The position numbers and the translations under genes were made by a program. Shown one piece after another: positions 55,473-62,495 of a stretch of DNA of 64,000 nt (position 1 is its first letter; every line of letters begins with the position of its first letter). The stretch comes from Acidobacteria bacterium Ga0077534 (GTDB taxonomy: Bacteria; Acidobacteriota; Blastocatellia; Pyrinomonadales; Pyrinomonadaceae), in assembly GCA_001464455.1 (NCBI GenBank), contig LNEI01000018.1, forward strand, positions 186,001 to 250,000. Reading direction: 5' to 3'. The notes under the pieces are model-generated. The model made no database searches. It saw nothing but the letters and a program-made list of their open reading frames with translations, and was not told the DNA's origin.

Positions 55473-55572
55473 GAGTTTGGGAAGTTTAGGAAGTTTAGGA
55501 AGTTAAAGGAAGGCGGAACCAACTTCCCAGACTTCCCCAACTTTCCTAAACTTCCCCAACTTCCAAAACTTC
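55473..55572. repeat. GAAGTTTAG-word repeat with inverted arms
   Basis: Left arm 55473-55504 (tandem GGAAGTTTA words) and right arm 55520-55572 (ACTTCC words, nearly its complement and longer). It fills the space between the convergent lipoprotein and tdk genes and probably works as a two-way terminator. Confidence 0.65.
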
Positions 55573-56188
55573 AAACCAGCGTTGGAGCATCAGCATGAGG
55601 CACGAAGCATTGTCTGCATCGTGCCTCATATTTATCGGCCGCACCGACCTCGACGCGAGCGTCGGATTCGACAGTGCGCTGTGAATAGTTGGCGGTCGAT
55701 CCGCATTTTACGCAGATGGCGTGAGTTTTGGTTATGAACTCCGCCACGGAAAGCAGCTGCGGCATCGGCTCGAACGGACGACCTGTGTAGTCCTGATCGA
55801 GCCCCGCAATGATCACGCGTTTCCCCTGCTCAGCGAGCCGATTGACGGCATCGATTATCGCCATGTCAAAGAACTGTCCCTCATCGATACCGATCACTTC
55901 GGTTTCGGTCAGCACATGGCCGAGCATTTCGGCTGTGTTCGAAACCGGTATCGAATCATGTTTGTGACCCGAGTGCGATGCGATCTGCTCGACCGAATAT
56001 CGAGCGTCGATCACAGGCTTAAAAACCTGAACTTTCTGCCGGGCGATCCGGGCTCGCTTCAGTCGTCGGATCAGTTCCTCGGACTTTCCGGAAAACATCG
56101 AGCCGGCGATCACTTCGATCCAGCCGGTACCGTTTTGACGAACTTTACGACGCTCGTCAGCATTGTCGAATGCAAATTCTTCTACCAT
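55571..56188 (-). CDS. tdk: Thymidine kinase, type II
   Basis: A 205-residue enzyme that phosphorylates thymidine with ATP in the salvage pathway. The P-loop GSMFSGKS lies at 29-36; GIDEGQFFD carries the catalytic Glu region; [15 protein letters not shown] is the lasso/thymidine-contact segment; and the four zinc-site cysteines appear in CVKCGS and CRQCF. An extra N-terminal stretch of about 20 residues precedes the usual start; an internal later start is possible. Confidence 0.93.
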
Positions 56189-56251: not shown

Positions 56252-57799
56252 TTACAGACACCTCAGGTCTTCGCCTGTCATTTCCGCCGGTTTATCGATA
56301 TCCATAAGAGCAAGTACGGTCGGAGCGACATCTTCGAGCGACCTGCCCTCGTAAAGCTTAACGTTCGCGACCTTTTCGTCGATCAGATGAAACGGCACGG
56401 GATTAACGGTCGGGAGCGGATTCGGCTCACCGCTCTCGGCGTGGATCATCTCCTCGCAATTTCCGTGCGTGGATGTCAACATCAATATTCCGCCGGCATT
56501 GAGCACCTTTTCCTGGATGCCGCCGATGCACGTGTCGATATACTGGATCGCTGCAACGGTTTTCGAAAGGTCGCCGCTTTCCGCCATCAGGCTCGCTGCG
56601 GGGATGTTTACTACGAAAAACCCGTTAGGAGCGGCATCGACCGCCTCTCGAAACCGATCAGTGATCTTGAACGTCTGCGATTCTGGCCAGGTCTCTGCCG
56701 CCGGTATCATCGGCCCGACGATGATCTCCTCTTCAGAGGGCTGCACAGCATCGGCCCCGCCGTCAAAAAAATACGTCAGGTGCGGCGTACGGACGGTCTC
56801 GGTGATCTTCACGCTAGGTATTTGCAGCGAAGAAAGTACCTCGGTCAACGTATTCGATTCGGGATCCTTCCTAAAAGCAGCGGGCAGGTTAAATGCCCGA
56901 TCGTATTCGGTCAGGCAGACCGTGTCGACAATAGGCTTCGCACCGCTGGCGCCCTCCGGAATACATAGCGAGCGGACGAGCTGTTTGATCGCGTCCGGCC
57001 GATGATTGAAAAAGACGACGAGGTCGCCATTGCAGACCCTTGTGACCGGAACGTCGGGAGCGGTCTCGATGACTATCGGCGATATGAATTCGTCTGAAAT
57101 ACCGCGGAGGAAGGAATTTCGGATCGCCGTTACGGCGTCGTGCGTTCGCTCGCCCTCGGAGTGCACAAGCATCGTAAACGCCCGAGCAGTTCGCTCCCAA
57201 CGTTCGTTGGCGTCCATTGCGAAAAAGCGTCCACACAGTGTTGCTATCCGCCCGATACCGATGTCAGCAAGCTTTATCTCCAGCGCCTCGACGTAAATGT
57301 CAGCGGTCCTTTCGGGGACGTCGCGGCCGTCGAGAATACCGTGAATGTAGACGTTTCTCAATCCGTGTTTCTTGGCGAGCCGCAGACACGCAAACAAACT
57401 CTCGGTCGATGAATGAACACCGCCGTCGCTCAGCAAGCCGATAAGATGCACCGCACCGCCCGTCTCTTTTGCTTTCGCGTAGGCACGGTTCAGGACGCCG
57501 TTATCCATGAAATCGCCTGAAACGATCGCGTTTCTGATCCGCTCGACCTCTGTCTGGGCCGCCCGTCCGGTGCCCATATTCAGGTGCCCGACCTCGGCAT
57601 TTCCCGGCTGGCCCGTCGACTGGCCAACCCTCTCACCCGCCGCTGCGAGCGTCGTCATCGGGTATTTACGACAGATCTCATCGTAGTACGGTGTGTGAGC
57701 GATGGCGATCGCGTTCCCCTCGGTCCGCGGGGCATAGCCCCACCCATCAAGTATGACCAGTGCGACCGGACGTCTGCTATTTAATTTTGCTGGAGCCAT
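56252..57799 (-). CDS. gpmI: GpmI-like protein lacking the catalytic serine and most metal ligands; possible pseudoenzyme
   Basis: A 515-residue protein that follows cofactor-independent phosphoglycerate mutase over its whole length: VALVILDGWG (D18), GGVHSS, ILDGRDVPERTADIY, GRFFAMDANERWER, VVFFNHRPD, LTEYDR, HLTYFFDGG, NPVPFHLID. The active site is altered. The catalytic Ser (Ser62 in the Geobacillus enzyme, in GNSEVGH) is Ala68 in GNAEVGH. The metal ligands D403, H407, D444 and H462 of that enzyme correspond here to S403, E407, T444 and about L462; only D18 and H445 remain. K336 and R264 of the substrate site also seem changed. The frame is intact and codon use looks normal. Mutase activity by the known mechanism is not expected. 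Enolase is encoded 1.1 kb upstream on the same strand. Confidence 0.85.
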   Translation of the reverse strand: MAPAKLNSRRPVALVILDGWGYAPRTEGNAIAIAHTPYYDEICRKYPMTTLAAAGERVGQSTGQPGNAEVGHLNMGTGRAAQTEVERIRNAIVSGDFMDNGVLNRAYAKAKETGGAVHLIGLLSDGGVHSSTESLFACLRLAKKHGLRNVYIHGILDGRDVPERTADIYVEALEIKLADIGIGRIATLCGRFFAMDANERWERTARAFTMLVHSEGERTHDAVTAIRNSFLRGISDEFISPIVIETAPDVPVTRVCNGDLVVFFNHRPDAIKQLVRSLCIPEGASGAKPIVDTVCLTEYDRAFNLPAAFRKDPESNTLTEVLSSLQIPSVKITETVRTPHLTYFFDGGADAVQPSEEEIIVGPMIPAAETWPESQTFKITDRFREAVDAAPNGFFVVNIPAASLMAESGDLSKTVAAIQYIDTCIGGIQEKVLNAGGILMLTSTHGNCEEMIHAESGEPNPLPTVNPVPFHLIDEKVANVKLYEGRSLEDVAPTVLALMDIDKPAEMTGEDLRCL

Positions 57800-57863: not shown

Positions 57864-58085
57864 TTACTTTCGCCGTGTAGCCGATGCCAGACGATCCGTG
57901 GACCTCGAAAAAAGCTGCTGATTGTAACTCCGCTCCGCTATCTGATCGAAATGCCGCTTCAGGTCATGCCGCACTAAATGTCTAAAATACTCACTCACAC
58001 AAGAATATCCCGCATCCCGAACCCGCACCTCGATCTGCCGATGCATCGCCTCGGGTATCGAAACTGTCAATTGCTTCCTTCCCAT
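57864..58085 (-). CDS. Ribbon-helix-helix DNA-binding protein
   Basis: A 73-residue protein beginning MGRKQLTVSIPEAMHRQIEVR with the strand-helix-helix pattern of CopG/ParD-type regulators (SCVSEYFRHLVRHDL). A strong GAGGAGG lies just before the ATG. No toxin gene is next to it: the following gene is the gpmI homologue, so it is either a solo regulator or the remnant of a toxin-antitoxin pair. A tandem 10-bp repeat upstream is a candidate autoregulatory site. Confidence 0.75.
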   Translation of the reverse strand: MGRKQLTVSIPEAMHRQIEVRVRDAGYSCVSEYFRHLVRHDLKRHFDQIAERSYNQQLFSRSTDRLASATRRK

Positions 58086-58404: not shown

Positions 58405-58836
58405 CTAGTAAGCGTCGGGTGCCGTCCGTTCCATCCAGCGGTCGGGGTGGACTAGGGGGTTGAAATCGTATTGGGCATAAAGGCCATGGGCGTCGCGGGT
58501 GGCGAGGACCCAGCGGCGGAGGTTTTGGAGGTCGGGGTGTGCGACGATGACCTCCATCAGCCATTTGCTGAGGCCGCGGCCGCGGTATTCGCCGATAATG
58601 AATACGTCGCCGATGTAGGCGAAAGTCGCACAGTCACTGACCACACGGGCAAACCCGACCTGCCTCTCGCCATGGTAAACGCCGAAGCAGATCGAGTTTT
58701 CGATCGCAGTTTTGGTTTGTTCGAGCGTGCGGGTTTGAGCCCAGTAGCTTTCCTTTGAAAGAAATTGATGTATCGCGTCGACATCAAGCCGCGACCCGGA
58801 GGTATCTACTTCAAATCCGTCCTTTTCGAAAAGCAT
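58405..58836 (-). CDS. GNAT family N-acetyltransferase
   Basis: A 143-residue protein with the acetyl-CoA binding motif A (DVFIIGEYRGRGLSKWLME) and the later LATRDAHGLYAQYDFNPLVHPDRWME, in the form found in small GNAT proteins close to the family of ElaA or arylamine-type enzymes. Its substrate is unknown. It follows eno on the same strand after a long hairpin. Confidence 0.85.
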   Translation of the reverse strand: MLFEKDGFEVDTSGSRLDVDAIHQFLSKESYWAQTRTLEQTKTAIENSICFGVYHGERQVGFARVVSDCATFAYIGDVFIIGEYRGRGLSKWLMEVIVAHPDLQNLRRWVLATRDAHGLYAQYDFNPLVHPDRWMERTAPDAY

Positions 58837-58947: not shown

Positions 58948-60273
<1,326 letters not shown>

Positions 60274-60743: not shown

Positions 60744-62495
60744 TTACTCACCGACCTCGAGATCGACGTCTTTTCTGGTCTTTCGCAGCTCAGCCGCTAT
60801 TTGTTTTACCTCGGCCATTCGACTGGGGTCGACGCGGGCCACCCACGCGGCGATCTGCCGTGCGCGCGTTGCTTCATCGGCCAGATAATCGGGCTTTGCG
60901 AGCGAACTATTTGCGGCGGCCAGGCCGCTGGCAGCAAAATAACGAACGATTGGGTAATTATCGCTCGCAAATGCTTCGATCAAAAACGGCTCGCGCCATG
61001 CGGCATCTGCGTGTTTTGTCATAGCGTCCGCCATCAGTGCCCGTGTCAGGGCATCGCCCGCAAAAAGCCCTCGAACCGCTTCGGCGAGGTCAAACTGCCG
61101 GTCGCCTATCGCCGCGATGTTCGCATACCTTTCGGGCCAGAGCCCTTTTGCCTGTTCGATCGACCAGTTTACCGACCGATCGACGTGACATTGATTGCAT
61201 GCATTCGGCACTCCTTTTTCGGCAGTTAACATCGGTTCGGGGACCGTTATCCTGTGCGTTTTGTGAATGGTCTGCACGCCGTACACGACCTCGGGCATGT
61301 GACAAGCGTAGCAGCTGTTGCCTGCCAAACCGTCTCCGTGCTTCGAATGGCGGCTCGCAGCCTGCGGTTCGGATAGCTCGGTGTGGCACTGCGTGCAGGC
61401 GGCGTTCGTGCGTTTTTCTTCGGTGATCTGGCCTTTGATGTCGCCGCCGTGCATGGTGTGGCAGGTCGAGCAGTTCATCCGCTTTCCTTTTTCACCTTCG
61501 GTGAAGCATTTCGAATCAAGGATACCCTGATACTCATACGCCGTTAGCCGAGGTGAACCGTCCTCCCAGAAGCGGCTGGCGAAGGAAAAGTTTCCGATCT
61601 TAGTATCTTTGTGCACGGGGCGATAGTACTTTGCAAGATCGTCGCCGGCGTTATACGGATCGCCTTTGGCGAGGATCTCGTTTATTCGATCGAAAGGTTC
61701 GGGCACACGCTGGCCGTGGCAGTGGCCGCAGATCATCATTGACCGGTCCGTGTCGATCTCGAGCGGGTCGACGATCTTGGTTGTCGAATCAGACCGCGAC
61801 CAGATCGCACGCGTCAGCGGCGAACCGGCAGCCTCGGCATGTTCGGCCCCCTGACCGTGACAGGCACCGCAGGCAATGCCGAGCTCCGCAACCTCGGTAT
61901 TTGCCAGCTTCGTCGCAAAATTATAGTTTGGCTGAGCCTTTACGTTGTGGCAAAAGACGCAGTTCGTATCCCACTGTGTAAAATGCCGCTTGTAATTATC
62001 TTCGTCGGGGTAAAAAAATGAGCCATTAAGGCTCATCCAACGCTTGTTCATCAGATCGTACGCGACCGGCAGCCTGAAATACTGGCCATTCTGCCTCGCA
62101 ACGTACTGCTCAATGCGGCGAGAACCGACCGTTCGCTCGACTTTGTACGATTCCTTTTTCCCGTCCGGGTAGGTCAGATCGATGAAATACCCTGGGCCGC
62201 GACGCTCCATCTTCGCCCTGACACCTAGATAGTCGAAAACATTGTTCTTTTCAAAGTCGCCCTGCACGGTTTCGGCCGATGCTTCTTGCGTCATGCGGCT
62301 GTGGTGGGTCCGTCGCCAGGAGGCGAAATGATCTTCGTGACAGGTGCGGCATTCAGTGGAGCGGATATAATTCTCGTCAGCCTTCCCCGCTCTTACCCCC
62401 ACATAATCCGCGCGAAGAGCGAGCACCGCCGAAGCGATACCCCCAATCACGACCAGCGTGACCAGTGCAGCCTTTAAAAGCACGCTCTTGTTCAA
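60744..62495 (-). CDS. Octahaem cytochrome c (cytochrome c554-like) with HEAT-like C-terminus
   Basis: A 583-residue exported protein with eight CxxCH motifs (CRTCHED, CVFCHNV, CGACHGQ, CGHCHGQ, CSTCHTM, CTQCHTE, CYACHMP, CNQCHVD) and an N-terminal membrane anchor or signal (LKAALVTLVVIGGIASAVLAL). The last 130 residues (EAVRGLFAGDALTRALMADAMTKHA, then NYPIVRYFAASGLAAAN) look like HEAT repeats, as in multihaem proteins of the c554/c-prime type. It should move electrons in the periplasm; the substrate is unknown. It is the middle gene of a three-gene operon with gaps of 5 bp. Confidence 0.88.
   Translation of the reverse strand: MNKSVLLKAALVTLVVIGGIASAVLALRADYVGVRAGKADENYIRSTECRTCHEDHFASWRRTHHSRMTQEASAETVQGDFEKNNVFDYLGVRAKMERRGPGYFIDLTYPDGKKESYKVERTVGSRRIEQYVARQNGQYFRLPVAYDLMNKRWMSLNGSFFYPDEDNYKRHFTQWDTNCVFCHNVKAQPNYNFATKLANTEVAELGIACGACHGQGAEHAEAAGSPLTRAIWSRSDSTTKIVDPLEIDTDRSMMICGHCHGQRVPEPFDRINEILAKGDPYNAGDDLAKYYRPVHKDTKIGNFSFASRFWEDGSPRLTAYEYQGILDSKCFTEGEKGKRMNCSTCHTMHGGDIKGQITEEKRTNAACTQCHTELSEPQAASRHSKHGDGLAGNSCYACHMPEVVYGVQTIHKTHRITVPEPMLTAEKGVPNACNQCHVDRSVNWSIEQAKGLWPERYANIAAIGDRQFDLAEAVRGLFAGDALTRALMADAMTKHADAAWREPFLIEAFASDNYPIVRYFAASGLAAANSSLAKPDYLADEATRARQIAAWVARVDPSRMAEVKQIAAELRKTRKDVDLEVGE

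Follow-up and report, generated by a model that had tools for sequence, protein, structure and literature searches.

Why would a bacterium keep, in an open frame beside enolase, a phosphoglycerate mutase (GpmI) whose active site has been dismantled, and which protein then carries out the mutase step? Both questions are raised by a locus in a 64,000-nucleotide stretch of DNA (the window) from an uncultivated member of the Pyrinomonadaceae (Acidobacteriota). An earlier note on this DNA had proposed either a pseudoenzyme retained for a binding or regulatory role, or an enzyme of new chemistry.

Gene, predicted fold and active site

The gene (56252..57799, on the minus strand, as are all window features given below) is a single open frame of 515 amino acids, running from ATG to stop with no internal stop codon. 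Its product, P0001, belongs to the GpmI family over its full length. It scored 443.8 bits against TIGR01307 (curated cut-off 330.65), had Pfam matches to iPGM_N and Metalloenzyme, and was collinear with Geobacillus GpmI, with 39% identity to 1o98/1o99 across 501 residues. The AlphaFold2 model had a pLDDT of 92.1 and reached Z values of 44.6–46.4 against the best GpmI structures. Profile match, alignment and model confirmed the earlier description of an intact, GpmI-collinear frame of 515 residues. Residues 1–83 (57551..57799) form the N-terminal part of the phosphatase (metal) domain A, residues 84–303 (56891..57550; PF06415 at residues 88–300) the transferase domain B, and residues 304–515 (56252..56890) the C-terminal part of domain A.

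GpmI enzymes carry the phosphate on Ser62 and depend on two Mn ions. Compared residue by residue with 1EJJ, P0001 retained 7 of 16 active-site positions (D12, H123, R153, D154, R185, R261 and H445); the others were replaced (1EJJ numbering: S62A, R191A, R264A, E335V, K336R, D403S, H407E, D444T and H462P). At the position of the phospho-carrier stands A68 (codon 57596–57598). The same change is found in 1o99, the S62A mutant. Of the two-metal site (D12/D403/H407/D444/H445/H462) only D12, present as D18, and H445 are left; the lost ligands read S403 (codon 56591–56593), E407 (56579–56581), T444 (56468–56470) and P463 (56411–56413). Among the substrate residues (H123, R153, D154, R185, R191, R261, R264 and K336), R191, R264 and K336 are replaced. 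The catalytic motif of the active homologs is absent.

The dismantled site had been described correctly and conservatively in the earlier note. The alignment bore out S62A, D403S, H407E and D444T, as well as the retention of D18 and H445; the note had overlooked K336R and the missing R191 and R264, and the H462 position, which it read as about L462, aligns with Pro463.

Conservation of the losses within the genus

The genus holds 33 copies of the gene, one of them partial, and the frame is open in 33/33. H462, R191 and R264 were lost, K336 was changed to Arg, and D444 to Ser or Thr, in all 33 copies. H407 was Glu in 29/33, and the position of S62 was Ala or Pro in 30 of the 32 copies covering it. 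No consistent replacement residue was found for D403 and H462, and R153 was replaced in about half of the copies. D12 was kept in 32/32 and H445 in 31/33, and the equivalents of H123 and R185 were invariant. Among GpmI proteins from other phyla, 62 of 69 were canonical at all 16 positions, the remainder showing only S62T, E335S/T or truncation.

Because the 32 further genus copies, each independent of P0001, have open frames and the same losses in the metal and nucleophile site, chance is excluded, and so is an assembly or base-call error in P0001, including at the five sites for which it had been considered. The metal site of the genus copies held no conserved alternative set of Ser, acidic or His residues. 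S61 and T62, suggested earlier as substitute nucleophiles, were rejected: neither position is conserved among the genus-mates (position 61 is A, E, S, T, P or a gap; position 62 is A, K, D, N, T or a gap).

The mutase step and GpmA

If this gene were the only mutase gene, the earlier note had argued, glycolysis would use an unknown solution. The premise proved wrong. The gene for a canonical 2,3-BPG-dependent GpmA of 248 amino acids shares the contig but lies beyond the window (L067:1168-1914, equal to G000:C18:95667-96413). Its product scored 435.8 bits against the equivalog model NF010713, whose cut-off is 305, and carries the motifs RHGES, ERHYG and AHGNS. Of the other mutase genes that the note had considered, gpmA was thus found; an ApgM-type gene, also searched for in the genome, was absent. 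Bacteria with both mutase types are well known; a survey of 2010 put them at 16% of genomes (PMC2964296).

Among 119 genomes from the order, GpmA scored above the cut-off in 41/41 genomes of this genus, in the genera g21, g22, g23, g24, g31, g32, g33, g38 and g46, and in one g41 genome; the remaining genera had no GpmA above the cut-off. In genera without GpmA the GpmI site was broken in 0 of 38 family rows, and all scored copies hold the seven ligand and nucleophile residues. Among rows assigned GpmA it was broken in 45/54, the other nine coming from g31, g33, three of g21 and the one g41 genome; GpmA was assigned genus-wise here, and a few fragmented g21 and g31 genomes gave a fragment or nothing. 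The co-occurrence of GpmA and site loss amounts to two independent contrasts only, on which a formal test has no power; it is a strong pattern rather than statistical proof of cause.

Within g41, the genome G119 (L097/L147) alone encodes a full GpmA. Its GpmI has remained fully canonical, without the domain-B signature described below; its GpmA is possibly a recent gain, or a contamination (6% reported). In another family of the class, the genome G057 (L075, ORFs from 4478 and 5333) has a GpmI with D12S, H445N and GNSEISH in place of GNSEVGH. Immediately upstream of this decayed GpmI, in which the domain-B signature is absent as well, lies the gene for a canonical GpmA (422.6 bits to NF010713). 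As the decay beside GpmA in G057 is independent, the onset of such decay happened at least twice.

Locus, ancestry and gene loss

Upstream of gpmI lie a GNAT acetyltransferase gene (58405..58836) and eno (58948..60234; 708 bits to TIGR01060), and the thymidine kinase gene tdk (55571..56188) follows 63 bp after it. The order eno-GNAT-gpmI is common to genera with intact and with broken GpmI, so that the gene is an ortholog, one gene altered in place. A paralog of an intact GpmI was ruled out by this ancestral synteny and by the single copy per genome. No RNA element of the locus was matched by Rfam. Between GNAT and gpmI, a gap of 605 bp contains a 73-codon ORF (MGRKQLTVSIPEAMHRQIEVRV..., 57866–58085), which by eye has the look of a ribbon-helix-helix DNA-binding protein and had no Pfam match at E 0.01. 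Upstream of eno, a multihaem c-type cytochrome-like protein (60744–62495) had weak matches of decahaem and nanowire type; of the wide loci examined by tblastn, only that of G007 contained it.

In a gene tree computed without the active-site columns, the genus was one clade with support of 100, within a group with g46, g38, g22, g32, g31, g21 and g23; g33 and g24 were placed adjacent to that group. This tree implies a minimum of five changes of catalytic state. In the GpmA-bearing sister genera, GpmI was graded from intact to fully dismantled. The g23 protein had mainly H462P; that of g22 had S62A, H407T, D444S and H462P, with R191, R264 and K336 still present, and further losses were seen in g38 and g46. 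GpmI of g24 and some of g21 decayed on their own.

The gene was absent from five examined species of the genus. In four of these, GNAT is followed directly by tdk, which borders the empty site; the fifth (G009) ends at a contig end. The tdk tree requires three losses of gpmI within the genus. In g23 the gene is missing from 6 of 9 genomes, some of which are incomplete. With at least three clean losses of gpmI in the genus, and its absence from these g23 genomes, the function is not essential.

Selection and the switch of the constrained domain

Whole-gene dN/dS (NG86) of eight within-genus pairs was 0.04–0.15, at dS of 0.27–1.30. The comparison values were 0.08–0.24 for intact GpmI pairs and 0.04–0.12 for the neighbouring eno, tdk and CBS. 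The gene product is therefore maintained as a protein. Purifying selection, as expected of a pseudoenzyme, was found, and neither the disrupted frame nor the dN/dS near 1 expected of a pseudogene.

The broken copies evolved faster than the intact ones, with terminal branches of up to 0.87, and the rise was in domain A. There, mean pairwise identity was 0.52 in the genus versus 0.73 in the GpmA-less genera, whereas that of domain B, now the most constrained part, was 0.65 versus 0.66. Residues 151–175 and 201–250 were more conserved in the broken proteins than in the live enzymes; the flanks of the old cleft, residues 326–375 and 451–475, were among the least conserved segments in the genus. 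Between intact GpmI, dN was higher in domain B than in domain A in 10 of 10 pairs; within the genus it was lower in domain B in 9 of 10. In g31, which has both an intact site and GpmA, the relation was intermediate. Two saturated dS values in this per-domain comparison were undefined, and their ratios were left out. Where estimable, dS was broadly similar between the domains, so the constraint acts on the protein, and a DNA-level or antisense-coding constraint is unlikely.

A domain-B signature older than the loss of catalysis

A column was taken as diagnostic if fixed in at least 85% of the 53 sequences of the GpmA-bearing clade and in at most 15% of 51 others. Of the 22 columns found, 18 are in domain B (Fisher p 0.0003). 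The column comparison delimited two clade-specific blocks, at residues 155–175 (57275..57337; I155, V161, R164, T165, D167, E171, E174 and I175) and at residues 205–245 (57065..57187; A205, T209, M210, F230, L231 and E245). A subset of 13 residues (R164, T165, D167, E171, E174, A205, T209, M210, F230, L231, E245, H266 and E298) was complete or nearly so in each genus copy. It averaged 0.68 of 13 in the GpmA-less genera and reached 0–4 in GpmI of other phyla. In g31 and g33, where the seven ligand and nucleophile residues are intact, 12–13 of the 13 were present; the signature was therefore gained before catalysis was lost.

The g31 and g33 proteins (L057 and L063) have N61S beside Ser62, and A401 (ordinarily Asn) and A406 (ordinarily Gly) near the metal ligands. 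As these changes adjoin the intact catalytic residues, the activity of both proteins may already be altered.

Three of the fixed changes lead from charged to apolar side chains: E/Q/K to A205, D/R/K to T209 and E/D to L231. Ordinary GpmI mainly has charged residues there, and the change suggests that a formerly exposed surface now makes a contact. The diagnostic residues of domain B probably form one surface patch. Part of the diagnostic set could reflect shared ancestry.

Origin and possible role of the protein

On the sequence comparisons above, we consider it probable that P0001 is the vertically inherited GpmI of the Pyrinomonadaceae, changed in place into a pseudoenzyme and kept for a non-catalytic binding role borne by domain B after GpmA took over the reaction. 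In the ancestor of about ten genera, as the comparison shows, GpmA became available and GpmI gained fixed residues, mostly in domain B. Once GpmA could catalyse the step, the metal and nucleophile site of domain A decayed in several lineages, and fully in this genus; purifying selection on the protein persisted, and its focus moved to domain B. This domain would bind a putative partner, most likely through a protein–protein contact acquired before catalysis was lost, and would be the reason why the protein was retained. The decayed domain A would be left as fold support, possibly with a partial ligand pocket. Moonlighting would thus have come first and the pseudoenzyme later. We give about even chances to this order, with a second, non-catalytic function on an active GpmI, GpmA freeing it from catalysis, and the metal site then being dismantled in parallel lineages.

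The main rival is that the old cleft was remodelled, perhaps into a ligand sensor, or into an enzyme with new chemistry, with D18, H129, R191 and H445 (P0001 numbering) and the new R337, E407 and S/T444 binding a phosphorylated metabolite or a single metal. The kept and replacement residues (D12, H445, K336R, H407E, S/T444, beside the invariant H123 and R185 equivalents) are so regular that the loss in the cleft is not random decay, and the fixation of R337, A401, E407 and S/T444 is unpredicted by a pure domain-B explanation. We nevertheless regard remodelling as rather unlikely, since the nucleophile position is Ala or Pro with no conserved Ser or Thr nearby, D403 and H462 lack a consistent replacement, R191 and R264 are lost throughout and R153 in about half of the copies, and the cleft flanks are poorly conserved; for new chemistry, the positive support consists of the few fixed cleft replacements. 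That the protein specifically serves GpmA or enolase in a regulatory or structural capacity, within a lower-glycolysis complex, seems improbable. Broken copies are confined to GpmA-bearing genera and the gene adjoins eno, and plant complexes of PGAM, enolase and pyruvate kinase with a moonlighting role have been reported (PMC9553893). However, the adjacency to eno is ancestral and also found in intact genera, species lacking the protein retain GpmA and eno, and inactive plant PGAM barely changed the mutant metabolome (PMC9553893).

Two further readings are less probable still. Slow, functionless decay of an in-frame pseudogene after replacement by GpmA would account for the lost site, the faster evolution and the deletion of a dispensable gene in several species. 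It is largely excluded by the open frames of all copies, by dN/dS far under 1 and comparable to that of neighbour genes, by domain-B segments conserved above the level of active enzymes, and by the confident predicted fold. Equally, that the broken copies still have phosphoglycerate mutase or phosphatase activity, through catalytic residues placed elsewhere, is very unlikely: the fold persists, as do about half of the substrate residues, and the NCBIfam equivalog model still accepts P0001, but no alternative Ser or acid/His set is conserved, a canonical GpmA is always present, and the known enzymology needs the Ser62 phospho-carrier and two Mn. The earlier interpretation as a whole is thus partly supported. 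Its pseudoenzyme kept for binding or regulation gains from the purifying selection, the hyperconservation in domain B and the genus-wide loss of the metal site.

Relation to known systems and meaning

With GpmI/iPGM (TIGR01307; 1EJJ, 1O98, 1O99 and 4NWJ) P0001 shares the full-length two-domain fold, the locus beside eno and about half of the substrate-site residues. It differs in the loss of the nucleophile, three metal-1 ligands and D444, and in the replacement of R191, R264 and K336; its clade differs in the shift of constraint from domain A to domain B and in the 22 diagnostic residues. GpmA/dPGM (TIGR01258, NF010713) of the same genome, which takes the reaction formerly done by GpmI, is non-homologous to it and has a histidine phosphatase fold. 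Plant iPGM resembles P0001 in a reported structural role beyond catalysis; in contrast to P0001 it is an active enzyme, and an inactive mutant version had little effect on the metabolome (PMC9553893). Pseudoenzymes in general are well known (PMC10211241). Pseudokinases, pseudophosphatases and yeast pseudonucleases have likewise lost catalysis while fold and selection were retained, and pseudoenzymes of other families have roles in scaffolding and allostery (PMC10211241, PMC8097288). A pseudoenzyme derived from GpmI was not found in the open literature searched, subscription papers lying outside that search.

TIGR01307 accepts all broken copies scanned (P0001, L026, L029 and L092), the most diverged, L029, with 344.2 bits against the cut-off of 330.65. 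Annotation pipelines would therefore call them active mutases, and metabolic reconstructions of these bacteria would credit the wrong enzyme.

To our knowledge, pseudoenzymes are usually seen as end states only. Here, one family of soil bacteria holds the starting enzyme, several intermediates and the end state at a single conserved locus, with GpmA as a plausible trigger and a measurable switch of the protected domain. The route from a metabolic enzyme to a non-catalytic protein thereby becomes directly testable. If moonlighting did come first, the series of living genera would record the steps from a moonlighting enzyme to a pseudoenzyme.
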